Positions 9,164 through 27,726 of a stretch of 34,397 nucleotides of DNA are shown here, in pieces. The first letter of the stretch is position 1; each line of letters starts with the position of its first letter. The notes under the pieces were generated by a model. It searched no databases. It was not told where the DNA came from and saw nothing but the letters and a program-made list of their open reading frames with translations. Location of the stretch: positions 1-34,397 of the IMG/VR virus record IMGVR_UViG_3300037487_001412, one strand, 5' to 3'. The DNA comes from a virus. The position numbers were made by a program, and so were the translations under genes.

Positions 9164-9582
9164 AGTTCCTCCTGGATGGTGACGAAGATGGGACCGGGGG
9201 CGCGCTTGAGCTTCTCGTACAGCTCGTTGTATGCCAAGGTGGAGTGCTCCACGAAGTCGGCGCGGGCGCGGGTGCCGGGCAGCCAGCACGCCTCCGTATC
9301 CTCCGGCTTGTTCCCGATGTGGATGCGCACGCCCTGGAAGCCGGGCACCTCGCACAGTATGGGCATCAGCACGCCGAACCTGGGCGAGGTGGTGATGCGT
9401 ATTTCGTAGCGCCCCGCGGGGATGCAGCGCGGCTTCACGTCATCGGTGCGCCGCGGGGGCTCGAGGATGAAGCACTCGGGCTTGCCCTCGAAGAAGAGGG
9501 ACCCGATGGTGCTCCGCGGCGTGAAGCGGTTGCGGAGCAGCAGCAACTCGGTTCCGTTTCGCGGCATCACGACGGGGCTCAT
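9160..9582 (-). CDS. DUF5675-like protein
   Basis: 140 residues that resemble the DUF5675 family found in phage lysis and tail regions. Diagnostic stretches are FTPRSTIGSLFFEG, ECFILEPP, CIPAGRYEIRITTSPRFG, PGFQGVRIHIGNKPEDTEAC and the C-terminal helix before VTIQEEL. The ordered His, Asp, Thr and Cys in IHIGN-EDTEAC look like a conserved active-site-like group. No activity is firmly known to me for this family. The gene sits between two membrane proteins, exactly where an endolysin would be expected, and no other lysin is recognisable in the window, so a cell-wall role is plausible but inferred. Confidence 0.7.
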   Translation of the reverse strand: MSPVVMPRNGTELLLLRNRFTPRSTIGSLFFEGKPECFILEPPRRTDDVKPRCIPAGRYEIRITTSPRFGVLMPILCEVPGFQGVRIHIGNKPEDTEACWLPGTRARADFVEHSTLAYNELYEKLKRAPGPIFVTIQEEL

Positions 9583-12040: not shown

Positions 12041-12411
12041 CGGAAGGGCCGACGAGTCGAGACCGTCATGAACTTGCACGTACCGGCCGCGGTGACTTGC
12101 AGCACGGAAATCACCTTATCCCGCGGCTCGAGGTAGATCAGCACCGGGTCCTGGTTCGAGGAGAACAGCACGGGCTGGTGGCTCGAGGTGGCGACCGGCG
12201 CCACGCCTGCCGTGGTGGTCGAGTTCACGTACACGTCGGCCGTGCAGGTCATCAGCACGGTGCTGCCCGCCACCCAGGTACACGTCCCGGTGGTGGGGCT
12301 CGCGGTGGACGCCGCGGTGCCCGAGGTGGTGATGGAGCAGACCACCGGCTCGGCGGCGAAGACGGGCTGCGAGGCGGCGAGAAGAATGAGGACTGCGAAG
12401 AGGTTTCTCAT
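12037..12411 (-). CDS. Small exported beta-rich protein
   Basis: 124 residues with a clear Sec signal peptide (MRNLFAVLILLAASQPVFA, then AEP). The mature part is Thr/Ser/Val-rich with alternating hydrophobic residues, typical of a single beta domain: four Cys (VVCSITT, GTCTWV, MTCTAD, GTCKFM) could make two disulfides. It overlaps the genes on both sides by ATGA, so it is translated with the adhesin gene and the internal virion gene. No family was recognised; likely partner or small receptor-binding accessory of the neighbouring adhesin. Confidence 0.55.
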   Translation of the reverse strand: MRNLFAVLILLAASQPVFAAEPVVCSITTSGTAASTASPTTGTCTWVAGSTVLMTCTADVYVNSTTTAGVAPVATSSHQPVLFSSNQDPVLIYLEPRDKVISVLQVTAAGTCKFMTVSTRRPFR

Positions 12412-14762
12412 GCGGGTTCAGCTCCCTTGGACTCGATGCGCTGCGCCTGTGTGAGCGCGTTCTTACCACTGTCGATCTGCTCACGTCCATCTGGACGCGT
12501 GCCCCCCTTGCTCGGGGACGCGTCCCCGTCCTTCGGCGCGAAGCTCTGCTGCATCACCTGCATGGCGCCGGGCTTCAGGCCCAGCACCGTGCTCCCGAAG
12601 AACTGAGCGAGCATCGCCCGCTTGCCGTAGGGCAACGGCTTGTTCCACTCGGAGAGCCGCTCGTACATGCGAGTTTTGATGTCGCCGTACAGCTCCGGGT
12701 AGACCTTCTCGAGGGCTTCCTTGTGCTCCAGCGTGAAGGTGCCCTGCGCCATCTTCTCGAGCATCCGCGCAGGCTGCTCGACGGCCTCGACGTACCTGTA
12801 CCAGCGCGCCACGTCGGCCATGCTCGGCTTCCACATCGGCTTGAGCGCCGCGGGCATCCCGGCGTTCGGGTCCTTCGGCGCCTTGCCCAACAGGAAGACG
12901 TTCGCCTCGAGCAGCTTGTTCACCAGCGCGCTGGTGGTGCCGGGGGCTCCGGCCAGCAACTCAGGGGGCGCGCTGGAGAACGCCGACTCGGGGTCCTTGA
13001 GGGTGAGTTTGATGCGCTCGATGCGCTTGTCGAAGGTGCTCACGTCCGACGACTTGTACCGGACGGCAGGCCCCACCTTGGTGCCCAGCACCGCGTCGAT
13101 GCCGTGGTCGATACGCTGGTCGAGGTCGGCCTGGGCGGCGTGCAGCGCGTCCATCGCTGCGAGCCGGGCGCCGACACCCTCCACCTGCTCCGGCGTCTCG
13201 TTCTCCATGCCGATGCTGGAGAGGTACGCACCCCCGTCAGGCCCGTTGGCGATGCGAACGTGCTCCTCGAGCAGGTCCATCGCTCCGCGGCCGAACGCCT
13301 GCTCGATGGGAATGCGCGCGGCGCCCAACACGGCCGGGGCCGTGGCGAGCACCTGACCGATGCGCGACTGGAGGCCCCCGGCGATGGAGTTGAGCGAGCC
13401 CGAGTTCCCGAGCTTGCGCAGCACGCTGCCGAGAACGAAACCGCCACGCCGCGTCATCTGGTTCTTTGCGTAGTCGCCCAGCATCCCTCCGACGACCGGC
13501 GCAGGCCCGCCCGTAGCCAGGGAGGCGATGGCGCCGAGCGAGGTGCCCCCCGTGCTGCGCTCGATGGAGCCGACCCGGTTGGAGATGGCCTTGCTCAGCG
13601 CCATTGAGGCTCGAGCTTCCTGCCCCGTCTTGCGCATCGCGGCGCCGAAGCCCGGAGCCACGTTCGGGTGCTTGGCCCCCACCTCGTCGAACACGAAGTC
13701 GCGCATCGCCTGCCGCAGCGTCTCGCGCACCTGTTTCGTGGCCGGGGGCGCTTCGATGCCCGCGAGGTCCTTGAACAGGTCGCTCTGGGTCTTCCAGGCG
13801 CTCTGCCACGTCAGGTCCACGTCGCTCACGAGCTTCGCGGTGAGGTTCTTCGCCTCGAGCCGCGCGCTGTCGAAGACGGGTCGGCCGCCGTACTCCTTGT
13901 CGAGTGCGTCGTCGAGCGCCTGGATGAACCCGGCGCGCATCTTGTCGTTGCCCTTGAGCGGCGCCATGCGCTCGAGGTCGTCCATCTGCCCGGCAATCTT
14001 GCCCGACATCTGCAACGCGTCCGCGGCGGCCTTCTTCGCGGTGGTCTCGTCGAGCGCGGCGGCGCCCCCGATGATGCCCTTGCGACGCCCGTACTCGAGG
14101 ATGTCGTCGATGTAGGGCTCGTTGCGCTTGGCCCATACCGCGTTGCCTTCGGTGAGCATCCGCTTCTCGGCGTTGTTCGCCGCGGTCTTGAGGGTGCCAG
14201 AGAGGGTGCCACCACCGAGCTTCTTCATGCCCGCGGATACGAGCCCCCCGGCACCCTTCATGACCCCGTGAATGCCCCCCGAGGCGAACGCACCACCTGC
14301 CATGCCCGCGGCCATCTTCTCGAGCGTGAGCGGGGACTTGTCGAGGCTGCTCTCCGAGACGACGGCCCCGAGCCCGGCCAGCCCGCCCTCGAGCATCGCT
14401 CCGCGGAAGCCCCCGCCGATGAGGGCGGAAGGACCGCCACCCGTCGCCACGGACATGCCCAGCGTGCCGCCGACTTCACCGGCCAGGGCAGCGCTCGGGT
14501 TCTCTTGCCTGCGGAGGCGCATGGCCTCCATCACGTCGTCGCGCGAGTTCCCGGTGAACTCGGCCTCGACGTTGCCGAGCAGCTCCTCACCGAAGCCGAG
14601 CGTGGCACCTCGAACTACGCCCTCGAGCGCGGCCTGCCCCGTCTGCTCCCCGGCATCGGCCTCTGCCTGCGTGACGGGCGTAAACCCGTCCGCGAGCGCC
14701 TGCTGCGCCTTGTCGTCGGGGATGTCGTAGACCTCCCCGTCAGTCCACTTGAAGATGGCCAT
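12408..14762 (-). CDS. Large internal virion/ejection protein
   Basis: 784 residues. The N-terminus, MAIFKWTDGEVYDIPDDKA, is followed by an acidic helix and then long Gly/Ala-rich segments (GVVRGATLGFGEELLG, LAGEVGGTLGMSVATGGGPSA, MAAGMAGGAFASGGIHG) that look membrane-active. RLRRQENPSAALAGEVGG is typical of phage internal-protein families that follow the tail genes of podoviruses. The C-terminal half is helical and charged. Such proteins are ejected into the host envelope with the DNA to form a channel. It is one of four such genes here, and together with the absence of a tape measure supports a short-tailed phage. Family assigned by pattern and location. Confidence 0.65.
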   Translation of the reverse strand: MAIFKWTDGEVYDIPDDKAQQALADGFTPVTQAEADAGEQTGQAALEGVVRGATLGFGEELLGNVEAEFTGNSRDDVMEAMRLRRQENPSAALAGEVGGTLGMSVATGGGPSALIGGGFRGAMLEGGLAGLGAVVSESSLDKSPLTLEKMAAGMAGGAFASGGIHGVMKGAGGLVSAGMKKLGGGTLSGTLKTAANNAEKRMLTEGNAVWAKRNEPYIDDILEYGRRKGIIGGAAALDETTAKKAAADALQMSGKIAGQMDDLERMAPLKGNDKMRAGFIQALDDALDKEYGGRPVFDSARLEAKNLTAKLVSDVDLTWQSAWKTQSDLFKDLAGIEAPPATKQVRETLRQAMRDFVFDEVGAKHPNVAPGFGAAMRKTGQEARASMALSKAISNRVGSIERSTGGTSLGAIASLATGGPAPVVGGMLGDYAKNQMTRRGGFVLGSVLRKLGNSGSLNSIAGGLQSRIGQVLATAPAVLGAARIPIEQAFGRGAMDLLEEHVRIANGPDGGAYLSSIGMENETPEQVEGVGARLAAMDALHAAQADLDQRIDHGIDAVLGTKVGPAVRYKSSDVSTFDKRIERIKLTLKDPESAFSSAPPELLAGAPGTTSALVNKLLEANVFLLGKAPKDPNAGMPAALKPMWKPSMADVARWYRYVEAVEQPARMLEKMAQGTFTLEHKEALEKVYPELYGDIKTRMYERLSEWNKPLPYGKRAMLAQFFGSTVLGLKPGAMQVMQQSFAPKDGDASPSKGGTRPDGREQIDSGKNALTQAQRIESKGAEPA

Positions 14763-14765
14763 CGC

Positions 14766-17105
14766 TTACCGCCTCTTGGCGTACGACGGCGCTGCGCCGT
14801 TTTGCTCGAGAATCGCGGCGAGCCGGTTGCGCTCCCCGACAGCATCGGACACGTCCCAGCCCTGCTGCGAGTGCATCCGGATGGTGCGGTCGAGCTGCTC
14901 CAGGGCCAGCTTCCCTGCGAGGTTCAGGTTCGGCACCGGGTCCACCTTGATCTGCCCACGCTCGCCCAGCAACGGCTGGAGGCGCTGCACCTCTTCCTTC
15001 TGGAGGGCGCCCTTGGCCGCGTTCGTCATCCAGTTGTTCTTCGCGGCGTTGAACTGCATCTCCGCGCCCTTTTCATCCGCGTAGCCGAAGGGTTCGTTCT
15101 GCGCGACCTTCTGCTTCGTCCGGTCCCACCAGCCGCCGTTCCGCGCGAGGTCGCGCATCTGCACGATGCTCTGGAGGTTCCCCGCGTACGCGTCCAGCGT
15201 CTTGATTGCGGCCTCGGGCATGAGCTTGCCCTTGCCCCCGGCACCGCCACCGGCCGCGGAGATCTTCGCGCTCGCCTCCATGCGGTTGGTGTTCGCGTTC
15301 ATCATCGCCACGCGGTCCTGGACGTTCTGGTGCGCAGCCATCTGCGTGGCCTGCTTCAGGGTCATCAGGTCGCCAGCGAGCTTTTCGTCGATTTTGGCCA
15401 TCTGCAACTTCGCCTGCTCCTGGAGCATCGGGTTCTCAGCAGCGACCTTCGCGATCTGGTCCTGCACCGACTGGAAGAACGAAACCCGAGCCGCGGCCAG
15501 CGACTCAATCGCGTTCATCCCCTGCTCGCGTGCCATCGCGATGACGTTCTTCTTGTCGCCCGCGATGAGGCTCAGCTCTCCGCTCTTGCGAGCGAGTTCA
15601 TCCTGCTGATTCTTCACTTCCTGCTGAGCGAGGTTGTCGAGCCGCTGGAGGAACTGAGGACCCTGGCCGACCCAGCCGAACAGCGCTCCCGAGATGACCG
15701 ACAGCACCCCGCGCCCAATGCCGCCCTTCGTGAAGTACGCGTCGGGGTCCACGGACGTGTTCATGAGCGCACGACGCTCATCCGCGATGGAGTTCATCGT
15801 GGTCTGACCGCGGGCCAGCGTCTCCTCGTACGCGTTCATCGCCGCGAGCCGCTTCTCCTCGTTCTTCGCGGTGAACGTAATCTTATCATCGAGGATCTTC
15901 GACTCGGCCTTGAGCCGCGACTCCTCCACTTTTCTCAGTTCGTCGTGGGCCGACTTCGCGCCATCGGCCGCAGCAATCATCCGCTTGCGCTCCTCGGCAA
16001 ACGGGTCCGCGGGAGGTGGCAGTTCGCCGGAGCCGGGCGTGGAGGTCTTCACGCGGGCCGAGAAAGAACCACCAGCACCCGGAGGGGGGGCTTCAGATGC
16101 CAGCGGAGGTGGAGCCGGAACAGGCGCTCCGACTTGGGTGGGTGCCGCGCTCGAGGGCATGGAGTCCTCGCGTGCTGCGAGCTGCTGCTCGTTGGGAGCC
16201 TGGGAGGGTGTGAAGATGCGACCCAGAGCAGCCGCACCGTCACGCAGGGGCGCCGCGAGGTCGTTCCCGAACTGGTCGATCCGCTGAATGAGCGAGGGCT
16301 CGACAGTCGGGTTCGGCTCATCCACAGGCACGCCGCTCTGGCCGAACCGCTGCACAGGGCGCGTGACGGAGGTGTCCTGGTTGTCGGTGACCGTGCCGGT
16401 GACCGTGGCGGGGCTGGCTTCCGTCACCTGCTCGAAGCTCGGGGGCTCGCCAGCGCGCTTGTGCGCAGCAGCAGCGAGGTTCGACTCGGGCGTGGTGAAG
16501 TCGATACCCTCCTTCATCTGGGCAGCGGCTTCGTTCTCCTTCACCGACTTCGCGAGCGCCTTGCGCGTCTCGAACGCGTCCACGTCCTCCTGGGTGATGT
16601 CGTTGGAGGGCGAGATGTCCAGCTCGGGCATCCTTCGCGTCTTCTCGTGCGCTGCTGCGCGGTCACCCGCAGGGGAGATGTCCAGTTCGGGCATCATCCG
16701 CGACTTCTCGTGCGCCGACGAACGACCCGTCGAGGACTTCGTACCCTCGGACGGCTTTGCACCCGTCACGATGTCCGCGGCCATGCGCGCAGCCCTCGCC
16801 ACGAGCGAACCGCCGCCGCCCTCGGACTTCGACAACTCGAGATCCTTCATGTCGGGGTTCTCTCGGTCGTACTTCTCCCCGAGAGACTTCTCGATTTTCT
16901 TCCCCATCCGGTCAATGCGCATCATGTCGTCGTTGGAGGGCGGCAGCTTGTCGCCGGTCATGTCCTCCACGAGCGTGCCCGCATCGCGTGCGTTCTTCTT
17001 GACCTTCTCCCACTCGGAGTCGGTCATGTTGCCGCGCTTGATCTCGACGGGCACCTTCCCCATCTCGATCATGATGTAGTCACCCAACTTCTTCTTGTCG
17101 GCCAT
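14766..17105 (-). CDS. Large internal virion/ejection protein with tandem 21-residue repeat
   Basis: 779 residues, starting at ATG 17105 with AAGGAG 7 bases before it. The N-terminal 200 residues are polar and Gly/Ser-rich and contain two tandem 21-residue copies with the shared core MPELDISP. A Pro-rich linker follows, then a long helical region (about 370-680) with one hydrophobic segment (GGIGRGVLSVISGALFGW) directly followed by amphipathic helix QGPQFLQRLDNLAQQEVKNQ. That hydrophobic-plus-long-coil layout is common in internal proteins of short-tailed phages and in tail-tip proteins. The C-terminal part (YAGNLQSIVQMRDLARNGG and beyond) is a helical domain. Likely ejected with the genome; a tape-measure role seems less likely. 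Confidence 0.65.
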   Translation of the reverse strand: MADKKKLGDYIMIEMGKVPVEIKRGNMTDSEWEKVKKNARDAGTLVEDMTGDKLPPSNDDMMRIDRMGKKIEKSLGEKYDRENPDMKDLELSKSEGGGGSLVARAARMAADIVTGAKPSEGTKSSTGRSSAHEKSRMMPELDISPAGDRAAAHEKTRRMPELDISPSNDITQEDVDAFETRKALAKSVKENEAAAQMKEGIDFTTPESNLAAAAHKRAGEPPSFEQVTEASPATVTGTVTDNQDTSVTRPVQRFGQSGVPVDEPNPTVEPSLIQRIDQFGNDLAAPLRDGAAALGRIFTPSQAPNEQQLAAREDSMPSSAAPTQVGAPVPAPPPLASEAPPPGAGGSFSARVKTSTPGSGELPPPADPFAEERKRMIAAADGAKSAHDELRKVEESRLKAESKILDDKITFTAKNEEKRLAAMNAYEETLARGQTTMNSIADERRALMNTSVDPDAYFTKGGIGRGVLSVISGALFGWVGQGPQFLQRLDNLAQQEVKNQQDELARKSGELSLIAGDKKNVIAMAREQGMNAIESLAAARVSFFQSVQDQIAKVAAENPMLQEQAKLQMAKIDEKLAGDLMTLKQATQMAAHQNVQDRVAMMNANTNRMEASAKISAAGGGAGGKGKLMPEAAIKTLDAYAGNLQSIVQMRDLARNGGWWDRTKQKVAQNEPFGYADEKGAEMQFNAAKNNWMTNAAKGALQKEEVQRLQPLLGERGQIKVDPVPNLNLAGKLALEQLDRTIRMHSQQGWDVSDAVGERNRLAAILEQNGAAPSYAKRR
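16590..16715 (-). repeat. Tandem 63-bp (21-residue) duplication within the 779-residue virion protein
   Basis: Two adjacent 63-base units (16653-16715 and 16590-16652) encode AHEK(S/T)R(M/R)MPELDISP plus six variable residues. About 16 of the 21 amino acids match, and the nucleotide identity is also high, suggesting a fairly recent duplication. Confidence 0.85.
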
Positions 17106-17113
17106 GATGCTCC

Positions 17114-17812
17114 TTAGAGAACGATGTCGAGAGCGGTGGCGCCTGCTGCGACCGCATCTTTTCCGGTCTGACCAGCAGTGCCCGTGTTCTTCTTCTGGAG
17201 CCGCTGAATCAGCTTGTAGTATTCCAGGTCCGCGTTGCGTGTGGCGTCGTTGAGCGCGGTGCCCTGACCCGCGTAGAACTGACGCATGGCGTCGTCAAGA
17301 CTTCGCTGCTGCAAGCCCGCGCTCGACTGCGCACCGGCCACGTTGAGGTCGGCCCCGCGCATCCCGGCCGCCACGTTGCCGAGCCCCTGCGAGGAGAGCA
17401 TTTGCTCCGCGAGCACGCCTGAGCCTGTGTCGGCCGCGAGCCCGGCGCCGATGCTCCCGGCCTGCGCCATCACCGGGCGGCCTGCGCCTGCCCCGAGAGC
17501 TGCCTGCACGTTCTGCCCCTGGGCACGCGCCCCCTGCATGGAGGCAAGCGACGGACCCGCCTGCTGCGCGCGCATCTGGGCGTACAGAGCTTCCTGGGCT
17601 GGTCGCGCTTGATTCGCCACGATGGTGGAGTACGGGTTCGCGCGAAGGGCGGCGTTCGCCCCGGCGAGAAGCCCCGGCTGGCGCGCACCGGCCGCTGCGT
17701 GGAGAGCATCCTGGGGGCGCTTGATCCCCGCGGTCATCGAATCCGTAGTGCGATCCGCCCAGGAGTCGGGAAGGAAGACCTGATCCATCGTGTTCGTGAA
17801 CCCGTCAGCCAT
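17114..17812 (-). CDS. Internal virion protein, paralogue of the 17822 gene product
   Basis: 232 residues, rich in Ala, Gly and Gln, with no charged clusters until the C-terminus. It is dominated by predicted helix and small residues (QARPAQEALYAQMRAQQAG, GLAADTGSGVLAEQML). Near residue 175 it has SLDDAMRQFYAGQGTALND, shared in modified form with the next gene (SLEDAMQQFYTQGGIGRDL), and the DNA retains a 15-of-16 match (GCATGGCGTCnTCAAG on the plus strand at 17285 and 18076). It is very likely a diverged duplicate of that gene. The end contains KLIQRLQKKNTG. Location in the internal-protein block suggests an ejected or structural role. Confidence 0.55.
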   Translation of the reverse strand: MADGFTNTMDQVFLPDSWADRTTDSMTAGIKRPQDALHAAAGARQPGLLAGANAALRANPYSTIVANQARPAQEALYAQMRAQQAGPSLASMQGARAQGQNVQAALGAGAGRPVMAQAGSIGAGLAADTGSGVLAEQMLSSQGLGNVAAGMRGADLNVAGAQSSAGLQQRSLDDAMRQFYAGQGTALNDATRNADLEYYKLIQRLQKKNTGTAGQTGKDAVAAGATALDIVL

Positions 17813-17821
17813 GTTCGCTCC

Positions 17822-18859
17822 TTACTTGTCCCAGTCGGGAACGATTGAGTTCTTGCCGTCCACCTGACGGTACTTGGTGTTGTCCCCGCCACCACTACTC
17901 GCCCACTTCGCAGCCGCCGAAGCAGCGGTGCCCGCAGAGGTTGCAAGCGCCGCGTTGCGCTGCGCCTCCAGGTCCTTGGACTCGAGGTCCATGCCGAGCT
18001 GCGCGCTGGTCAGGCCCGCTCCGTACTGGTAGTTGCTGAGATCGCGCCCGATGCCACCCTGCGTGTAGAACTGCTGCATGGCGTCTTCAAGGGACGTGTT
18101 CGCCAGCGCGTTGCTTGCCATCGCTCCGGCCTGCTGTCCGTCCTGTCCGCGCTGCGCCGCGAGCTGCTGAGCGAGCAACGACTGCGCTGCCACCTGCTCC
18201 CGGTTCATCAGCATGGCCGAATCGCCCGCGAAGCCGCGCTGCACGTTGCCTGCCCCGAGCACTCCGGCTCGCAGACCGGCGCCACCCCCCGTGCCTCGCA
18301 TCGACGAACCCAGCGCGCTCTGCCCGGCCCGCGCATCCGCGTAGCCAGCCTGCAAGCCCTGCTGAGCGCGCGAGTTCGGGTTGCCCGCGGCCGCTTGCTG
18401 GAGGTCCTGGATCATCTGCGTCTGCCACGCTCGAGAGGCATCTGCGTTGGTCGCGTCGAACGCGACGTTCGAGCGTGTGGGGGCTCCGGCCGAGAAGTAG
18501 TCGTCCCAGGCGTTGCGCCTCGTACCCTGCTGAGCACGGTCTCTCGAGCCCATGACCGCGTTCGAGGTGTTGGTGTGCCCCCCGTTCGCGATTGCTGCTT
18601 GCTCCCCGGCCTGCTGCGCGTTTGCGGCGTAGTTCGGGTCCGCAAGCCGAGCGGCTTTGGCCTCTTCGTCGGCCTGGTACTCAGCCATCGTCTGATCCTG
18701 GTAGTTCGGATCAAGCGAGCGGTTGGCCGCGTTCGACGAAGCGAGCGCCTCTTCGGGCGTCTCGGACATCTCCCCAGCGCCGTTGGCGCGAATGTAGTCG
18801 AACCTCTCGGACTCGGGGATGAACTGCCCAGCCTTTGGTCCGTACTTGGGAATCGGCAT
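17822..18859 (-). CDS. Internal virion protein, paralogue of the 17114 gene product
   Basis: 345 residues, overall Ala/Gln/Gly-rich. The N-terminus is polar (MPIPKYGPKAGQFIPESER), then come Asn/Gln/Ala-rich helices and Gly-rich turns (GTGGGAGLRAGVLGAGN). SLEDAMQQFYTQGGIG near residue 255 is the stretch shared with the 17114 product; after it comes another helical region ending QRNAALATSAGTAASAAAK. The ATG lies three bases after the large tail gene stop. The protein probably sits inside the head or channel; no enzymatic motif is visible. Confidence is in the coding call and the paralogy, less in the role. Confidence 0.55.
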   Translation of the reverse strand: MPIPKYGPKAGQFIPESERFDYIRANGAGEMSETPEEALASSNAANRSLDPNYQDQTMAEYQADEEAKAARLADPNYAANAQQAGEQAAIANGGHTNTSNAVMGSRDRAQQGTRRNAWDDYFSAGAPTRSNVAFDATNADASRAWQTQMIQDLQQAAAGNPNSRAQQGLQAGYADARAGQSALGSSMRGTGGGAGLRAGVLGAGNVQRGFAGDSAMLMNREQVAAQSLLAQQLAAQRGQDGQQAGAMASNALANTSLEDAMQQFYTQGGIGRDLSNYQYGAGLTSAQLGMDLESKDLEAQRNAALATSAGTAASAAAKWASSGGGDNTKYRQVDGKNSIVPDWDK

Positions 18860-18862
18860 GGC

Positions 18863-21800
18863 TTACACGTTCTCCGGGGTCCGCGTGGAACCGTACTTGA
18901 CGCCGACAGCAAGAGCCAGATCCGTGATGCGCACTCGGCTGAGCCCGTTCTGGTCGGAGAACGTGAGCCGCAGCAGCATCGACTGGCACTTCTGCTTGAA
19001 GAACTGGTGCTGGAACTGGAACACCCCGGCGACGGACACGACCGGGGCCGCGCTCGAGACTTCAGGCGTACCGAGGATCTGCTCGCCGTCGTACGCCACC
19101 TCGATGTCGAAGGCCGGTGCGCTTCCGTAGTTGGCCGCCCCGAGCGCCAGCATCCGGCGCACGCGCTGGAAGCCCTGGAGACCGGCGACCTGAATCGGCG
19201 CCGTCTGGATGAGCCCGCGCACCACGGTCGTCTCCCCCTGGTCCTGCACTACGGCCGGATTTCGGTACTGGAGGCGAGGCACGCCCGCGTTGTTCTGGAG
19301 AAAGAAATAGACCCCGCTGACGAGGCAGGCGTCCACGCTCGAATGCCTAGTGAAGATGACGAACTGGCCCCAGGTCTGGTCCCACACGAAGCAGTACGAG
19401 TTGTTGAAGAACTGCGTCTGCTGCGTGGCGCCACCCGACAGCGCGACAACGGGCGGGTTTCCTGTAGTGGCGATCATCGGGTCCAGGTCCGAGCCGACGA
19501 AATCCCCCGTCTGTGCACGAGACACGCCCGCGCTGGTGAACAGCCGCAGACCGTACTTGCTCTGGAACCAGATGCCCTCGGTGGCGAGCTTCACGGACTT
19601 GGGGGCGGTCCACAGCGCACCGATGCCGGTAGCGACCGTTTCCACGGACGCGTACCTGCCCACGCCAGAGGAGTTCGGCCCGGTGCCGAACAGCACGCCG
19701 AACGCGTTCTCCCCGACCACCACGAGCTTGCCCGACATCTCCGCGGTGGCGACGACTCGGCCAAGTTCCGACTTCACCACCTGCTGAAAGGACACCTCGT
19801 CGGCCACGAACTCGGCCGAGAAGCCAGGAGACACCTGCTTCGACCAGTAGAGGCGCGAGCCGTCACCGCAGCCGGAGAGCACCATGCGCTCGTCGAACAC
19901 GGACATGTGGCGACACGACGGGGCGGGCGTGTTTCCAAGGATGCCTCCCTCGGTGTAGAGCACCTCGCCGGAAGGCAGGTTCGCCTCCGAGATGTAGGCG
20001 CCCAGTCCGTACTGGTCCGACTGTGCCAAGTAGAGCGTGGTGTTCGTACTCGATTGGAGCGTGCGGTAAATCTGGAGCTTGCGCGTCCCCTTCAGGCTCG
20101 GCGGCCGAAGAATCGTCGGGTCGATGTCGAGGTTGCCACCCGAAGTCGCTACGGAGCACAGCGAAGAGATGCCCGATTCGTGCCAGTTTCCCTGTGCGTC
20201 TTCCCATGAGTCGGTGAACGCGCAGATGAAGGTCCCGATGCCGGGGAAGGTGAACTTGCCCGTACCCGTAGGAAGCGGAGGGATGACGACGAGCCCGCTC
20301 ACCACGTTCCCCACGACTTCAGGGTTGAAGTGGAACCCCTCCTCTACGAGCTGCATGCCGTCCGTGATCATCGGAAGCGCACCGGCCAAGTACGTCAGGC
20401 CGTTCCACTTCGCGTCCCCCAACTGCTCGATGGGCGAGAACCGCGCCGCAGCGACGCAGATTTCGGTGTTGTTGGTCACGCCAGCCAGACGCGTGTTCGT
20501 CTCGAACTTCACGTAGGGCAGCAGGCTCCCCGAGCAACTCGGGATGCGGTGTCCGGAGTTGAGCGCGAGCGGGCTCGGAGCTGCTGCCTCGCCCCAGTCG
20601 AGTCGGGCCACGATGGACGTGGGGAACTTCAACGTGTTCAGGCCCGTAGCTGCCTCGGTGAGGTCGAACACGAGCAGCACGCTCTGGAACTTCGTCGAGG
20701 TGAACAGGACCGGAACGAAGTCGCGCCCACGCATCGTGAAGCTGCGCCCGGCAACGAAGCCGGTGATGGACGTGGCGTTCACCTGGGAGACCAAAACGTG
20801 AGCGGTGGTGCAGCGCAGTACGTTGGTGAACGCGTAGCTGTTGGCGGTGCTCGTGAAGCCGTCGAACGTCAGCAGCATGTCGCCACCAGTGAAGTCCGTG
20901 ACGACGATGCGACCTACGCGTGTCGTGGCGAAGGGTCCGACAACCGTCACCTCCGCGGACTGCACACTGGCTACGTGCCTGTAGCCTCTCAGGTTCAGCC
21001 CTGCTCCGTAGAAGGCGTGCGCGGTGAACGTTGCCCCGTCGAAAGTGGCGTGCGCCGTGAGCGACACAGGAGGAGCGGCAGGTGCGGCGTTCGTCACGGT
21101 CGTGATTGCGACCAGTCCCAGGCCGACCAGCACCATGTAGATGTTGCCCGCAGCGATGGTGCCTCGAGCAACAACTGCGTAGCCAAGTCCCTGCACGATT
21201 GCGACATCAAACAGAGCCGTAGACGCCACCGTGGACTCTACGAGCACCCCGTTTGCTGTCGTGACGAGCAGGCCCCCGTAAACGAGAGCGCCACCTGCCG
21301 CAGGTACGTAGTGGCCGATCACATCGAAAGAGACTGCCCCGGCCTTATAGCGGGCGTAGAAGATGGAAAAGCGCGCGTTCGTCGAGTCGTAGATGACGCG
21401 AGGGTTGACGAACTTGTCGCTACCTGCGGAGAACGTGCCTCCCGAGATTTCCGCATCGGTCGCGAGGTCTCGCACAGACCACTTTGCGTAGCCGAAGCGG
21501 TCCTGTTCCCACGCGAGGCAGTACGTGGACGCGCCAACGGCGCAGTCGAAAGACACGCCGTACAGCGACGCACCTACGCCCGGCTCTTTGCGCGTCAAGC
21601 CCTGGATGCGATTTGTGACGACACCGACTCGAGTAAACTTGTTCGTTCCGTTGTCGTACGCCGTATCGGTGGCGTACTGGCTCACGAACGCGGACCCGTT
21701 GGCGCGCACCGTCGAGCCATCCAGCATCTCGATGTTCGGCACGTTGTTGTGCTCGAACATGCGGACGCCGGTTGAGAAGCCTCCGGGGATGGTGCGCACG

Positions 21801-21949
21801 CTGGTGCCAGCTCGCGTGATGATATCCATCCCGTCCAGATCCACGTCGTACGCCTCCGTCAGCTTCGACGGGATGACGAGTCGCTGGTCGGTTTTCTTGT
21901 CAACACCGCCACGAAGAGAGATGCGCACCGGCAAGTCTTGAAGCGCCAT
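18863..21949 (-). CDS. Large beta-rich tail protein (nozzle/stabilisation type)
   Basis: 1028 residues, mostly beta, with few charges. The N-terminus, LRGGVDKKTDQRLVIPSKL followed by AYDVDLDGMDIITRAGTS, has the form of the podoviral tail stabilisation/nozzle family (a GGVdtkTdp...lveaeNv...pGs segment), which binds below the adaptor and forms the distal tail tube. Further blocks of alternating hydrophobic residues continue to residue 1000, with seven or more beta-propeller-like stretches. It follows the adaptor in the expected gene order (portal, scaffold, capsid, adaptor, nozzle). The call rests on N-terminal motif, length and order. Confidence 0.65.
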   Translation of the reverse strand: MALQDLPVRISLRGGVDKKTDQRLVIPSKLTEAYDVDLDGMDIITRAGTSVRTIPGGFSTGVRMFEHNNVPNIEMLDGSTVRANGSAFVSQYATDTAYDNGTNKFTRVGVVTNRIQGLTRKEPGVGASLYGVSFDCAVGASTYCLAWEQDRFGYAKWSVRDLATDAEISGGTFSAGSDKFVNPRVIYDSTNARFSIFYARYKAGAVSFDVIGHYVPAAGGALVYGGLLVTTANGVLVESTVASTALFDVAIVQGLGYAVVARGTIAAGNIYMVLVGLGLVAITTVTNAAPAAPPVSLTAHATFDGATFTAHAFYGAGLNLRGYRHVASVQSAEVTVVGPFATTRVGRIVVTDFTGGDMLLTFDGFTSTANSYAFTNVLRCTTAHVLVSQVNATSITGFVAGRSFTMRGRDFVPVLFTSTKFQSVLLVFDLTEAATGLNTLKFPTSIVARLDWGEAAAPSPLALNSGHRIPSCSGSLLPYVKFETNTRLAGVTNNTEICVAAARFSPIEQLGDAKWNGLTYLAGALPMITDGMQLVEEGFHFNPEVVGNVVSGLVVIPPLPTGTGKFTFPGIGTFICAFTDSWEDAQGNWHESGISSLCSVATSGGNLDIDPTILRPPSLKGTRKLQIYRTLQSSTNTTLYLAQSDQYGLGAYISEANLPSGEVLYTEGGILGNTPAPSCRHMSVFDERMVLSGCGDGSRLYWSKQVSPGFSAEFVADEVSFQQVVKSELGRVVATAEMSGKLVVVGENAFGVLFGTGPNSSGVGRYASVETVATGIGALWTAPKSVKLATEGIWFQSKYGLRLFTSAGVSRAQTGDFVGSDLDPMIATTGNPPVVALSGGATQQTQFFNNSYCFVWDQTWGQFVIFTRHSSVDACLVSGVYFFLQNNAGVPRLQYRNPAVVQDQGETTVVRGLIQTAPIQVAGLQGFQRVRRMLALGAANYGSAPAFDIEVAYDGEQILGTPEVSSAAPVVSVAGVFQFQHQFFKQKCQSMLLRLTFSDQNGLSRVRITDLALAVGVKYGSTRTPENV

Positions 21950-23026: not shown

Positions 23027-23428
23027 TTAGTTTCCGTTCGGGACCTGAAGCGTGTTGCTCAGCTTCACGCCGATCAGCCAGATGTCGGTCGTCGCGAGGT
23101 TCGCCAGCGTCGGCGCCACGGCGGTGGCCGCCGCGAACACCTTGACCCGGATGACCTTGGTGGTGCTCACCGTCTCCGAGACGATGGTGAAGCAGTAGTG
23201 CCGCAGGCCGGTGGAGTCGATGACGTGGAAGTCGGCTCCGAGCAGCGCCGCCCACTTGTCGCTCAGCGTGATGTCGTAGAGCCCGGTGCTCACCCAGGCG
23301 ATGCTGGCGACACCAAGACCCTTGAGGCCGGTGGGGCTCGCGCCCGCGGCGCCCACGCACTTCGCGGTGATGCCCACCTCGTCGCGGTTGAACGTCTTGG
23401 CCGTGTCCGTCAGATTACGTGCGCCCAT
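23027..23428 (-). CDS. Small capsid-associated beta protein
   Basis: 133 residues with AGGAG 9 bases before ATG 23428. It is beta-rich with a distinctive GLYDITLSDKWAALLGADFHV stretch. Proteins with this pattern often follow major capsid genes in uncultured phages and may be decoration, cement or head-closure components. No membrane segment or enzymatic motif. A transcription terminator lies immediately upstream, so it may depend on read-through from the capsid gene. Confidence 0.6.
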   Translation of the reverse strand: MGARNLTDTAKTFNRDEVGITAKCVGAAGASPTGLKGLGVASIAWVSTGLYDITLSDKWAALLGADFHVIDSTGLRHYCFTIVSETVSTTKVIRVKVFAAATAVAPTLANLATTDIWLIGVKLSNTLQVPNGN

Positions 23429-23443
23429 GTTCTTGTTCTCCTG

Positions 23444-23487
23444 AAAAAGGGGTGAGGGGAGCGAGCCAGTTTCAGCCCGCTCCCCTC
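23444..23487 (-). terminator. Terminator downstream of the major capsid gene
   Basis: Read on the minus strand: 10-bp stem GAGGGGAGCG/CGCTCCCCTC (23478-23487 with 23454-23463), a 14-base loop, then ACCCCTTTTT with the T run at 23444-23448. It is nine bases after the capsid stop. It would partly end transcripts after the capsid gene and let capsid mRNA dominate, a common phage arrangement. Confidence 0.75.
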
Positions 23488-23495
23488 GAAGGTGA

Positions 23496-24728
23496 TTACG
23501 GCATCACGAGGCGCGCGTTGCGGCCCGGCCCGGTGCAGGTGAGCTGACCGTAGAAGCTGATGCGGCCTTCGTAGGCGTCGCTCGAGGCCTTGCGGGACAG
23601 GGTGGCGCCGTCGAAGTCCTGCATGATCGCCAGCTCGCGCATGTAGCGCAGCTTCCAGGTGTCGAGCTGGAGCAGGCGGCCCACGCCGGAGGGGGCGTTC
23701 TGGTCGGCGTAGATCATCACGTCCTTGCCCTTGGGGCCGAGGATGCGGATGCCCGAGAAGCCGATTTCACCGATGCCGGTGTACTCGACTTCCGCCTTCG
23801 ACCCGAGCGACACCTGTACGTTCTTGGCGTCGATGTTGTTCATGAACAGGTGCGAGGGGTTGCCACCTTCACGCGCCAGCCGGTGCATCGCGGTCGTCAC
23901 ACCCTCTTCGGGGTTGAACGACGAGATGTTGATGCGCAGACCGCCGAGGCGGCTCGGGTGGATCGAACGGTCCACGCCGAAGAACGCCGCCGAGGTGGGC
24001 GCCGTCGCCGGGTTCCACGACTCGAGACCCGAGAGCCGGAGGTACTGGCTCTGGAGGGTGATGGCCGCCACCTGACGGTCACCCTTCACGAAGATGTGGT
24101 CGCCCGTGGTGATGGTGTCGGTGTTCGCGTCGATCACGAACGTGCCCGCGTCGGTATCCACCGACAAGATGGTCTGGCCGACGCCCGAGTTGCGCAGGAT
24201 GGCGGTGTTGGTGGCGCCCGTCGAGCACACGATCTTCATGCCCGGCTCGACGTTGGTGATGTCGTTGACGTTCACCATCGTGAGCGTGGTGCCCGCGACG
24301 GACACGGTGCCGAGCGAGCCCACGCCGTCGCCGTAGAGCGAGATGGCGCGCGAGCGGCCGAAGTTGTTCAGCGCGGAGCTGACCTCGGTGTCGAGCGACT
24401 TGAGGAACGACGCCTTGCCAGCCTCGTCGGCCGCGAGCATCGCCTCCGTCTCGATCTCATAGACCTGGTAGTCCTTCACACGGGTCGTGAGGAACGCCAC
24501 GCCCTTGAGCGCACCAGCCACCGCGCCAGCCTGCGCGTCGGTGAAGCCCGCGCTGCGACCCTGGGTGTCGGCGTAGCGGACGGCGATGACGCTGCCTTCG
24601 CCGCCGAAGCCGCCTTCCTTCGCGATCATCGCGAGGAGGGGGTTGTCCTGGTACACCATGTTCTCGACCCGGTTCTGCGGGTAGAGGCGCTTGAGCGCGA
24701 AAGCAATCGAAGCCGTCGAAACAGTCAT
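23496..24728 (-). CDS. Major capsid protein
   Basis: 410 residues. The N-terminus (TVSTASIAFALKRLYPQN, VENMVYQDNPLLAMIAKE) and the sequence IAVRYADTQGRSAGFTDAQ have the pattern of HK97-fold phage coat proteins of the scaffold-assisted type; later stretches such as VDRSIHPSRLGGLRINI, THE MHRLAREGGNPSHLFMN segment and TWKLRYMRELAIMQDFDG fit the same fold. Gene order is portal, scaffold, capsid, terminator, the standard block. The ATG at 24728 follows directly on a perfect hairpin that contains its only Shine-Dalgarno-like GGTGA. Very likely the most abundant virion protein. Confidence 0.9.
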   Translation of the reverse strand: MTVSTASIAFALKRLYPQNRVENMVYQDNPLLAMIAKEGGFGGEGSVIAVRYADTQGRSAGFTDAQAGAVAGALKGVAFLTTRVKDYQVYEIETEAMLAADEAGKASFLKSLDTEVSSALNNFGRSRAISLYGDGVGSLGTVSVAGTTLTMVNVNDITNVEPGMKIVCSTGATNTAILRNSGVGQTILSVDTDAGTFVIDANTDTITTGDHIFVKGDRQVAAITLQSQYLRLSGLESWNPATAPTSAAFFGVDRSIHPSRLGGLRINISSFNPEEGVTTAMHRLAREGGNPSHLFMNNIDAKNVQVSLGSKAEVEYTGIGEIGFSGIRILGPKGKDVMIYADQNAPSGVGRLLQLDTWKLRYMRELAIMQDFDGATLSRKASSDAYEGRISFYGQLTCTGPGRNARLVMP

Positions 24729-24771
24729 GAGTTCACCGGAGGTATGCCCCCGGTGAACTCGTCACCGGAGG
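24729..24771 (-). promoter_or_regulatory. Two mutually exclusive hairpins before the capsid start codon
   Basis: On the minus strand three segments alternate: segment 1 (24771-24762), segment 2 (24760-24747) and segment 3 (24742-24729, ending at the base before ATG). Segment 1 with 2: 10 bp including one G-T, 5-base loop. Segment 2 with 3: 14 bp including one G-T, CATA loop at 24746-24743. Both use segment 2. The capsid Shine-Dalgarno candidate GGTGA (24737-24733) lies inside the second hairpin. The scaffold stop codon directly precedes segment 1. It could control capsid translation, or act as an RNA processing site; no T run follows, so it is not a typical terminator. Confidence 0.7.
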
Positions 24772-25722
24772 TTAAGGAAGCTCGCGGGCCAGGGCGTCGT
24801 AGTCCGGGCCAGCAGGTCGGGTAGCGCGCGGAACCGTGGGGGCTCCGGCCTTGTTCGTGAGGGTCTTCGCGGTGCTCACTGGTGCGTTACCCGGCCGGTC
24901 TCTGGTGGCCTCGGGGGCAGTAGAGCCAGAAGCGGGGGCAGCCGTCAAGTTCTGCATCTTCTCCCACTGCTTCTTCGTGAGGGTGACCTCGCCCTCGCGC
25001 AGCCTGCGCTCGTACTCCTCGGCGGCGATCTGGATGACCTCGACGCCCGTGGCGCCGCCGACGAACGCCTTGGCCTCGGGGTCCCACATCGAGTCGATGA
25101 TGCCTCGCACGCCCTCGAAGTCCTCGAGCCCGGCGATGTGCTTGAACTTGTCCGCGGCCTTGAGCACGGCATCCTTGATGCCCCCCAGGATGACCGACTG
25201 CTGCTCGCGCATCTTGGTCTGCTTCCAGTGCTCCTTCATCGCGACCAGCTCGGGGTCCTCCTCCCTCGCCTCCGGCTTGGCCTCGGGCTCCGGCTTGGCC
25301 TCGGCGGGCTTCGCGGGCGCACCAGCCACGCGCGAGGCGATGTCCGCGTACGAGTAGCCGAGCGCGTTCATCGCGGCGAGCGGGTCGTTCGAGTTCATCG
25401 CCTTCTCGAGCGCGGCGGCCTGGATGGGGGACACGACGCGAGCGAGGTTCAACCCGTGCTTCGCGGCCTCCTTCTGCTGCCGGAACTCCGACTGCGCGGT
25501 GGCGAGCCGGGCGAACCCCTTCTCGAACGGAGTACCGGCGCCTTCGCCAGCGGGCTTGTTCTCGGGCTCAGCGGGAGCGCCCTCAACGGGCTGCTCGGCG
25601 GGGGCGCCAGCGGGGGCAGCGGCCGGAGCGGCAGCGGGCTTCTCAGGGGTAGAGGCCGGTGAGGGCATCTCTTTGGCGATGGCGGAATAATCGGGGGCAA
25701 CGGGGGCAATTCGTTCGGGCAC
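24772..25722 (-). CDS. Scaffold protein
   Basis: 316 residues from GTG 25722 with AGGAGA upstream. It is acidic, Ala/Pro/Glu-rich and has no stable globular part, as usual for phage scaffolds: a Pro/Ala-rich N-terminal third, a helical Glu/Lys-rich centre (EFRQQKEAAKHGLNLARVV, EEYERRLREGEVTLTKK) and a Pro/Ser-rich C-terminal linker. A short motif appears at both ends: PDYSAIAKEMP near residue 10 and PDYDALARELP as the last residues. The location between portal and capsid settles the role. Confidence 0.8.
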   Translation of the reverse strand: MPERIAPVAPDYSAIAKEMPSPASTPEKPAAAPAAAPAGAPAEQPVEGAPAEPENKPAGEGAGTPFEKGFARLATAQSEFRQQKEAAKHGLNLARVVSPIQAAALEKAMNSNDPLAAMNALGYSYADIASRVAGAPAKPAEAKPEPEAKPEAREEDPELVAMKEHWKQTKMREQQSVILGGIKDAVLKAADKFKHIAGLEDFEGVRGIIDSMWDPEAKAFVGGATGVEVIQIAAEEYERRLREGEVTLTKKQWEKMQNLTAAPASGSTAPEATRDRPGNAPVSTAKTLTNKAGAPTVPRATRPAGPDYDALARELP

Positions 25723-25740
25723 GTTTCTCTCCTGTGGGTG

Positions 25741-27726
25741 TTAGGCAGCGATCAGCGGCGCAACGGCGGGCACTGGAGCCGCTGCGTTCATGGTGTTGGT
25801 GATGTTCGTCGGGCCACCGGGACCGCCCGGCATCGGGGGCGGACCCATCGGGGCGCCGGGGGCGCCGGGCATCCCCATCGGCATCGGGGGAGGCGCCATC
25901 GACTCCGCGAGCATGTTGGAGGCCATCTCGATGAGCGAGCGCAGCATGTCCAGGCGCTCCGGCTCGATGTCCTTGAAGTGGCGCGCGAACAGGTAGTTCG
26001 AGATGCCCCGCTCGACGAGGAGCTGGAGGTTCTGGAACGGCTCGGGCGGGTGCAGCTCGGGCTCGTCGTCGTCGAGGATCGCGCTGATCGTGGCGTCGCA
26101 GTCGTCGAGCGCCGCGTTGCCCAGGTCCATCTCCGCTTCCACGTCGGGGAAGCCGAGCAAGCGCTTCGCGACGGTGGCGGTGATCATCCCGTCCGCCTGG
26201 AGTTCCTTGACGAACTGCTTACGCGCACCGGGCGTGTTCGGCAGGCTGCTCGCGGAGAGCATCTGCATCACGTACGAGTCGGAGTCGAGTTCGATGTCCT
26301 TCCAGTCCACCTCTTCGGCGCGACGACGGCCCGAGACCTTGACCTTGTACCCGTTCTGCATCTGGGGGTACTGCTTCGTGACCAGCTCGATGGAGATGCG
26401 CGCGCACTCGAGGAACAGGTTGTCCCACGCCTGATGCACGAGGGCGAAACGCTCGCTCTCGATCTCGCTGTACTCGCGCAGCGCCACGCCCGCGTCGAGC
26501 CCGGCAGGCTTCTTCGACGCGGCCGAAAGCATCGACACGCCGTAGTCCTGGAAGCAGCGCTGGTAAATCTTGTCCACCTGCGCGAACTCATCCGCAGACA
26601 CCACGTTCGCGTTGTCCACGACGGGGGGCGAGCCCGTGTAGTAGACGTGATCCGAGAAGCCGTTGGTCAGGTGGTTCGAGTTCACCTTCGAGCCGTGCTG
26701 GATGAAGATGCGCCCCTTGCCCTTGCGGCGGATCTGCTCGCTGATGGACTTCATCGTGCGGTTCAGCTCGAGCTGGCCCCCGGTGAGCGCTTCGGCGGCG
26801 CCCTTGCCCCAGAACCCGACCACGCGGGGCTTGCCCTTAAGCACCGCGAACGGGAATCGGTTGAGCTTCCAGTCCTCGCACTCCAGCTCGCAGCCCTGGA
26901 TGGCGATGATGTGGCGCCCGTCCTTGGCCTTGGGGCTCGAGGGCAGGTGCCAGCCCTCCCAGACCTCGACCATCAGCACCGGGGCGGTGCCTGACTTCGG
27001 GTCCGGGCCGTTGAGGATCTCCTCCGCGTAGTCCGGGAACATGGACGCAAGCACCTCGCGATGCATCATCTTGCGACGGAACAGGCGCCGCGGCGCCCCG
27101 TTGAGTCCGTCTGCGTCGTCCACGTACAGCTCGCTGGGGAGCACGCGCTCCACCTCGAGCCGCAGCGTCCCGTCCGCCTGCTCCTCGGGGTAGAAGTGCA
27201 GGAAGCCGGTGCCGAACACCTGCGCATCGACGAACTGCTGCTTCGCCTTCTCGTAGAGGTCCACCTCGTAGAAGAAGCCGCGCGACCACTTGTCGAGCTT
27301 GCGCGCCTTGCGCTGCGACTTCCACGACGCGCCGCTGGTCAGGAACTCAGGGCGCGGCTTGTTCTTGGAAATCTTCGCGGCCAGGGTGTCCACGCAGGCG
27401 GCGATGACGTTCAAGGTCATGATGCCGGTGCCGATGATGGCCTGCCGCACCACCGCGGTCGCGTAGTCGCTCGTGGTGAGCGAGTTGATCTCCACGTTCT
27501 CGTACAGCCGCGCGTGGCGCACGTTGGATTGCTCACGCTCGGTCGAGTTGTTCTTCACCCGCTCGCACTCACCGATGAAGGCCGCGCAGCGCTGCCCGCG
27601 GCTGTCGTCGGTCTTCAGGTCCTTCGACAACCCCCACCAAGTCGAACCAATGGACGAGTTTTGAGCCCCCGCTTTGGCGGCCTTCTCGTTCTTGTAGCTC
27701 TTGGCATCTTTCCAGGAGGGGGGCAT
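25741..27726 (-). CDS. Portal protein
   Basis: 661 residues. The N-terminus is helical and polar. The middle has the portal-family layout of a long helical and beta core (LNVIAACVDTLAAKISKNKP, FGTGFLHFYPEEQADG, VLPSELYVDD, MVEVWEGWHLP), a stem-type region and a long C-terminal helix with Gly/Pro/Met-rich tail (PMGMPGAPGAPMGPPPMPG). NKPRPEFLT and VERVLPSELYVDD are typical of dodecameric portal proteins. It lies downstream of the terminase and upstream of the scaffold, the usual order. The Gly/Pro/Met tail is a little unusual and may be an internal-facing extension. Confidence 0.88.
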   Translation of the reverse strand: MPPSWKDAKSYKNEKAAKAGAQNSSIGSTWWGLSKDLKTDDSRGQRCAAFIGECERVKNNSTEREQSNVRHARLYENVEINSLTTSDYATAVVRQAIIGTGIMTLNVIAACVDTLAAKISKNKPRPEFLTSGASWKSQRKARKLDKWSRGFFYEVDLYEKAKQQFVDAQVFGTGFLHFYPEEQADGTLRLEVERVLPSELYVDDADGLNGAPRRLFRRKMMHREVLASMFPDYAEEILNGPDPKSGTAPVLMVEVWEGWHLPSSPKAKDGRHIIAIQGCELECEDWKLNRFPFAVLKGKPRVVGFWGKGAAEALTGGQLELNRTMKSISEQIRRKGKGRIFIQHGSKVNSNHLTNGFSDHVYYTGSPPVVDNANVVSADEFAQVDKIYQRCFQDYGVSMLSAASKKPAGLDAGVALREYSEIESERFALVHQAWDNLFLECARISIELVTKQYPQMQNGYKVKVSGRRRAEEVDWKDIELDSDSYVMQMLSASSLPNTPGARKQFVKELQADGMITATVAKRLLGFPDVEAEMDLGNAALDDCDATISAILDDDEPELHPPEPFQNLQLLVERGISNYLFARHFKDIEPERLDMLRSLIEMASNMLAESMAPPPMPMGMPGAPGAPMGPPPMPGGPGGPTNITNTMNAAAPVPAVAPLIAA

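Follow-up and report, generated by a model that had tools for sequence, protein, structure and literature searches.

The window, i.e. the whole stretch of DNA analysed here, is the record of an uncultured bacterial virus, 34,397 bases long, with genes for a DNA polymerase of family A, a portal of the P22 type and a probable terminase. On its minus strand, the portal gene (25741-27726, phrog_156) is followed by an open reading frame for a probable scaffold protein of 316 aa (24772-25722, with the TAA stop codon at 24774-24772), and then by the gene for the major capsid protein, 410 aa long (23496-24728; phrog_14242 major head protein, E 4e-10). The ATG at 24728 is the true start of the latter, as the capsid proteins of relatives align from residue 1. 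A strong intrinsic terminator (23454-23487, minus strand), with a stem of 15 pairs plus CCCCTTTTT, lies immediately 3' of the capsid gene, and the capsid transcript ends there. The capsid genes of two related loci, L083 and L084, are likewise trailed by comparable hairpins of different sequence. A family search with the upstream protein gave no match. Its gene is homologous to the one that takes this position in L083 and L084, and a KTLTN-like C-terminal motif with a short charged tail after it was found in the upstream proteins of the window, L087, L089, L142, L099, L001 and others. Judged by its position between portal and capsid and by this homology of the C-terminus with its counterparts, the gene probably encodes the scaffold. 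Elsewhere in the window, five ORFs of 232-1028 aa without a PHROG match occupy 12408-21949 (minus strand), downstream of the capsid region, and an inverted repeat of 19 nt, 79% complementary and with an 8-nt loop (CACCTCGCACAGTATGGGC / GCCGAACCTGGGCGAGGTG), is found at 9346-9391.

The scaffold stop and the capsid ATG are separated by 43 bases (CCTCCGGTGACGAGTTCACCGGGGGCATACCTCCGGTGAACTC), and the minus strand here reads CTT CCT TAA CCTCCGGTGA CGAGT TCACCGGGGG CATA CCTCCGGTGAACTC ATG. Three segments make up this junction, all on the minus strand. Segment 1 (CCTCCGGTGA, 24762-24771) starts at 24771, directly after the stop codon, segment 2 (GAGTTCACCGGGGG) occupies 24747-24760, and segment 3 (CCTCCGGTGAACTC, 24729-24742) holds the SD-like GGTGA at 24737-24733, with its last base adjoining the ATG; SD assignments here assume a standard anti-SD. 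Segment 1 forms the 5' arm of a first hairpin, HP1 (24747-24771), with the TCACCGGGGG part of segment 2 (24756-24747) as its 3' arm. This hairpin has 10 bp, one of them G-U, a 5-nt loop (CGAGT) and a stability of about -17 kcal/mol, and is predicted to leave the capsid start open. In the second, HP2 (24729-24760), an inverted repeat, the whole of segment 2 (24760-24747) is the 5' arm and segment 3 the 3' arm. It has 14 bp, including one G-U, a CATA loop and a stability of about -26 kcal/mol, and is predicted to close the capsid start. As segment 2 is common to both, HP1 and HP2 are mutually exclusive, and the score of the window, i.e. of two competing helices of this size sharing one segment, was matched by 0 out of 2000 dinucleotide shuffles.

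Most of this arrangement had been anticipated in a preliminary description of the sequence. The two alternative pairings of segment 2, of 10 and 14 bp, are read directly from the letters as claimed there, and so are the stop codon placed immediately before segment 1, the end of HP2 at the base before the ATG (24729), and the duplicated sequence, ACCTCCGGTGA at 24772-24762 and 24743-24733, from which both alternatives are formed. RNAfold, proposed there as a check, returned HP2 as the best fold of a 91-nt region (z = -3.9), with 0 of 200 shuffles equally stable. The claim that HP2 buries the sole SD-like GGTGA has to be amended: the motif occurs twice, at 24766-24762 in segment 1 and at 24737-24733 in segment 3, and it is the second copy that is both buried and well spaced for the capsid ATG.

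Simpler accounts of these repeats were considered and rejected. HP2 does not qualify as an intrinsic terminator, since it is followed by ATGACTGTTTCG without a T run and a terminator scan finds only the hairpin at 23487-23454. A scaffold-capsid fusion through frameshifting or bypass was discarded because the capsid proteins of relatives begin at their own ATG, several of them with free SDs. A mere tandem duplication of ACCTCCGGTGA leaves segment 2, as well as the recurrence described below, unexplained, and a dispersed repeat was rejected as no further copy of the exact hairpin pattern was found in viral contigs. Rfam 15 gave no match at gathering cut-offs for the window and eight relatives, and none with E<=5 in window positions 24600-24900.

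Relatives were collected by IMG/VR searches with the capsid and portal proteins, giving about 300 loci, all metagenomic; the capsid start was located in each locus and the junction upstream of it was then read. The capsids closest to that of the window are found in L083 (60%), L084 (54%), L088 (50%) and L089 (44%). Among annotated phages (50,697 records), the capsid proteins of the window, L084, L016 and L098 had no relatives, and the distant capsid protein of L001 had only matches of 23-26%, to Microbacterium and Cellulosimicrobium phages. Bacterial and archaeal genomes searched with capsid and portal yielded no relatives.

The three-segment layout, running from scaffold stop to capsid ATG, was found in two separate clades with major capsid proteins roughly 40-60% identical to that of the window, while the letters of the three segments are largely or wholly different between the window and those two clades. 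A lack of conserved pairing in relatives was the refuting outcome set beforehand, and the preliminary description survives this test, as both hairpins recur with changed sequence. L084, for example, reads CTGTGACTCTC-CATGT-GAGAGTCACAG-CAACAAG-GTGACTCTCAC-ATG, which is the plan of the window in different letters; its segment 2 can form 12 bp with segment 1, or 14 bp with segment 3 and the start codon. HP1 and HP2 have the same lengths in L087 (12 and 14 bp), and measure 11 and 13 bp in L016 and 11 and 11 bp in L089. The layout also occurs in L137, L142, L193, L235 and L243, and in weaker form in L240, L241, L245 and L069; the HP1 of L069, L240 and L241 does not stand out well from shuffles (33, 135 and 105 out of 2000, respectively). 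The scaffold stop lies just before segment 1 in the window and L016, within segment 1 in L084, L089 and L137, and in the HP1 loop in L193. In most members, the core of segment 1 is identical or nearly identical to segment 3, because both must pair with one and the same partner. That both folds are kept in distant relatives though the letters have changed suggests that evolution maintains a switch.

Three members of clade A have their capsid genes present without a complete switch, namely L083/L086, L088/L244 and L085/L172. L083 has a single hairpin, whose loop contains the scaffold stop, and L088 another single one, just 5' of the stop, while in L085 the gap measures 5 bases and a hairpin is missing. 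Other hairpins were seen at these junctions as well. In L219, a 10-bp hairpin (GCGTTTAATC/GATTAAGCGC) extends up to the base that adjoins the ATG and has no strong competitor, i.e. it corresponds to HP2 without HP1. Many AT-rich relatives, among them L031, L047, L053 and L059, have a short recurring hairpin, AAACTTAAAGGAGTTT, around the capsid SD, which is weaker than HP2 and lacks a clear competitor. In L146, L148, L157 and L166, a single hairpin is situated between scaffold stop and SD, leaving the SD outside; its loop begins with ATGGA and its arms vary (TTGACCC/GGGTCA vs GTGGCGC/GCGCCA).

The second clade (clade B) consists of loci within L091-L100 (incl. L091, L094-L096 and L098-L100) together with L103 and L183, and its two hairpins have 10 and 10-12 bp. 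The SD sequence is different here and the plan is the same (e.g. CGCTCGGAGTAAGATAAACTTGCTCCGATAAGGAGTAAGTT-ATG in L099), with HP1 spanning the last scaffold codons and the stop, and HP2 ending with the base that adjoins the ATG. Over the eight distinct HP1 sequences, which are close to each other, 100% of the cells are paired and three pairs are altered on both sides (UA/CG, AU/CG and AU/GC); the covariation score was reached by 0 out of 500 shuffles, and slid controls were 34-46% paired. HP2 is 96% paired without two-sided covariation, because segment 3 also serves as a ribosome site and is constrained by that role. In L183, the scaffold stops two codons sooner (SSLFR vs SSLFRSE), through a TCG or CAG turned into TAG, and HP1 is nevertheless kept, as segments 1 and 2 have changed in step, one of the changes breaking an HP2 pair. 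Matching changes in HP1 at the cost of an HP2 pair suggest that RNA pairing, rather than protein, is what selection acts on, and among the sequences compared L183 is the cleanest sign that points to such selection on HP1.

The frequency of such arrangements was estimated by giving each junction the score of whichever of its competing helices was the smaller. Strict helix scoring was employed, since scoring paired hairpins by energy only let too much through in GC-rich sequence, with 15 kcal/mol reached at four control junctions. A score of at least 8 was found in 17 of the 161 capsid junctions and in 2 of the 307 other junctions on the same contigs (Fisher p 6e-7), numbers to be read with the relatedness of the members, which makes the counts non-independent events, and the crude control gene calls in mind. 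At a score of at least 9, there were 14 capsid junctions against one control. The two control junctions scoring at least 8 (in L287 and L060) resemble strong terminator-like intergenic hairpins. On the capsid tree, the two clades are supported at 100/99 and 100/100, and the switch is found in 13 out of 16 members of clade A and in all eight of clade B. The switch label, carried by 21 members including four weak ones judged by eye, changes 5 times on this tree, compared with 18.4 times when labels are shuffled. Very probably, the junction holds a real and selected switch over the capsid start.

According to the computed energies, exposing the capsid SD and AUG of the window costs 14.0 kcal/mol in the free RNA, 23.4 kcal/mol when a ribosome occupies the scaffold stop and 4.2 kcal/mol with HP1 formed, the last of these being 3.7-5.5 kcal/mol in most members; the start would therefore be open in HP1 and closed in HP2. 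In a growing window transcript, the minimum free energy fold changes from HP1 to HP2 once the 3' end is at ATG-6. HP2 is ~9 kcal/mol more stable than HP1 in the window, so that a highly expressed gene would be mostly closed at equilibrium, which counts against the switch model. HP1 is as stable as or stabler than HP2 in L016, L137, L193, L183 and clade B. The barrier from HP1 to HP2, in a rough direct-path estimate, amounts to ~9 kcal/mol in the window and 11-18 kcal/mol in most others, and barriers of this size suggest that the fold is changed by an outside agent.

The ribosome finishing the scaffold gene is the obvious candidate for this agent, because in all members the 5' arm of HP1 falls between -12 and +14 relative to the scaffold stop, i.e. 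in the place taken by a terminating ribosome, whose presence there would thus exclude HP1. HP2 of the window starts at +14, just beyond the leading edge of the ribosome, and closure would therefore be favoured while a ribosome is at the stop. The same geometry, with the ribosome ending before an intact HP2 and an opening cost of ~18-23 kcal/mol, was found in L016, L069, L235, L240, L241 and L243 as well as in the window. A ribosome on the scaffold stop of clade B, L142 or L193 would instead cover 5-8 nt of the 5' arm of HP2 and unravel it, the computed opening cost falling to 5-7 kcal/mol. Given this difference between members, one direction of coupling cannot hold for all. The earlier suggestion that a ribosome ending at the scaffold stop blocks HP1 and favours HP2 thus agrees, in its first half, with all members and, in its second half, with the window and about half of the relatives, but not with clade B, L142 and L193.

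We propose a bistable, cis-acting mRNA switch over capsid translation initiation that is reset by ribosomes, a reading to which we give an even chance. On the emerging RNA, HP1 would form first and constitute the open, productive state, in which segment 2 is engaged with segment 1 and the capsid SD and AUG are free; with segment 2 paired to segment 3 they would be buried. A ribosome arriving at the scaffold stop would have to melt HP1, since segment 1 lies beneath it. In the window, segment 2 would thereby be freed and HP2 would shut the capsid start, unless a ribosome were already on the start. Scaffold termination, which breaks HP1, and capsid initiation, which breaks HP2, would therefore compete on one mRNA. 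A view fitting all members is that segment 2 would go to whichever partner is free. Whether ribosomes at the scaffold stop are what sets the switch seems to us evenly poised, and a net negative effect, in which scaffold translation lowers capsid initiation, is a tentative suggestion that we lean somewhat against. It is doubtful that a widespread and hitherto undescribed class of phage RNA switches exists in which the scaffold-terminating ribosome resets the capsid start between two near-balanced folds, the mRNA alternating between scaffold and capsid (negative coupling of two adjacent structural genes). Control of the scaffold-to-capsid ratio by the switch, raised as a possibility from the sequence, is conjecture.

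The geometry at the stop codon also bears on positive translational coupling by RNA unfolding, in which HP2 would shut the capsid gene, ribosomes finishing the scaffold would open it and HP1 would then trap segment 2. This unfolding model is established for neighboring genes, with coupling to ~+40 nt spacing at reduced efficiency (PMC12548453), and it suits clade B, L142 and L193, where the overlap of the terminating ribosome with HP2 brings the cost down to 5-7 kcal/mol. It is harder to reconcile with the window and the six loci that share its geometry, where HP2 is untouched at ~18-23 kcal/mol, and reinitiation by scanning would need to cross a 14-bp stem; we regard unfolding coupling as a doubtful account. 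The folding order, in turn, could make a timer that works without scaffold ribosomes, nascent HP1 holding the capsid start open for a while and slow refolding into HP2 silencing old mRNA. The preference for HP1 until the 3' end is at ATG-6 agrees with this, and barriers of 9-18 kcal/mol imply, roughly, times from ~1 second to far beyond the mRNA lifetime. Where HP1 is at least as stable as HP2 (L016, L137, L193, L183 and clade B), no spontaneous shut-off is expected, however, and the position over the scaffold stop would be a coincidence, which leaves a timer unlikely in our judgement.

HP2 alone would nearly silence the capsid gene, so that some escape is needed, and a T4-type timing could supply it if HP2 silenced read-through RNA while a late promoter or processing made capsid mRNA start in or after segment 2, with the SD freed. 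There is precedent in T4 I-TevI, soc, e and others (PMC2988022). Such timing leaves HP1, its compensatory changes and its conservation in two clades unexplained, and no sigma-70-like promoter was found in 23300-26000, though promoters of phages may be of another type; we consider it quite improbable. Another reading, which would dispense with a pairing switch and to which we attach very little probability, takes the element as a processing site or as a double-strand or protein binding site, whether for RNase III or a phage protein or in the form of a DNA operator whose half-sites are repeated. For RNase III, a stem of only 10-14 bp is short. Control of phage genes by RNase III binding does occur sometimes, as in lambda cIII (PMC2777011), and the half-sites, being repeated and inverted, could belong to an operator. 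Against this, the paired letters differ so greatly that no recognition sequence is shared, and what the members have in common is the pairing and its position relative to stop and ATG.

Returning to the proposed ribosome-reset switch, its possible significance lies in head assembly, which needs scaffold and capsid in suitable proportions; to our knowledge, it is mostly unknown how tailed phages set this proportion on a shared transcript. In phage T7, a low scaffold-to-capsid ratio leads to aberrant polycapsids (PMC3185693). An element at the scaffold-capsid junction that is kept through extensive sequence turnover as pairing only makes the question of proportion testable with small reporters. 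If true, the switch would add a form of coupling between neighboring genes whereby a ribosome on the first gene can close the second. Furthermore, comparing structures at a fixed gene junction exposes regulatory RNA that is missed by sequence-based family models.

Among known systems, the erm translational attenuators (the ermC and ermB leaders), in which a drug-stalled ribosome on a short leader peptide opens the downstream gene, likewise have exclusive mRNA hairpins, one of them over the downstream SD and AUG, the choice being made by the position of the upstream ribosome. Here, in contrast, the upstream ORF is full-length (316 aa, ~300-340 aa in relatives) with no short leader peptide, there are three segments with the stop codon in or next to segment 1, no stall signal was seen, and the ribosome in the window would favour the closed form instead of opening the gene. 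Coupling by unfolding, with the examples trpE-trpD and galT-galK (reviewed in PMC12548453), also involves neighboring genes and a structure over the downstream start, here HP2, and the spacing of about 30-45 nt is similar. The classical case has one inhibitory structure that is opened by the ribosome, whereas here it has a competitor in HP1, located at the upstream stop, and the ribosome of the window stops short of HP2. In T4, hairpins hide the ribosome binding sites of the late genes I-TevI, soc and e, and relief comes from late transcripts without the 5' arm (PMC2988022). A stable hairpin over both the SD and the start of a late gene, on a polycistronic phage transcript, is a common trait, but no competing hairpin is described for the T4 cases. 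Lambda cIII similarly has phage mRNA conformers that block or allow ribosome binding, two in its leader, with the choice also made by temperature and Mg. There, inhibition is relieved by RNase III binding (PMC2777011). The conformer is set by RNase III and not by the ribosomes of an upstream gene, and both gene and sequence are unrelated. Competing hairpins at a scaffold-capsid junction are not described in the open-access part of the literature that was searched. The known principle is thus that of alternative hairpins set by a ribosome, and what is new is the place, i.e. a hairpin at the upstream stop competing with one at the next start, at the junction between scaffold and capsid.
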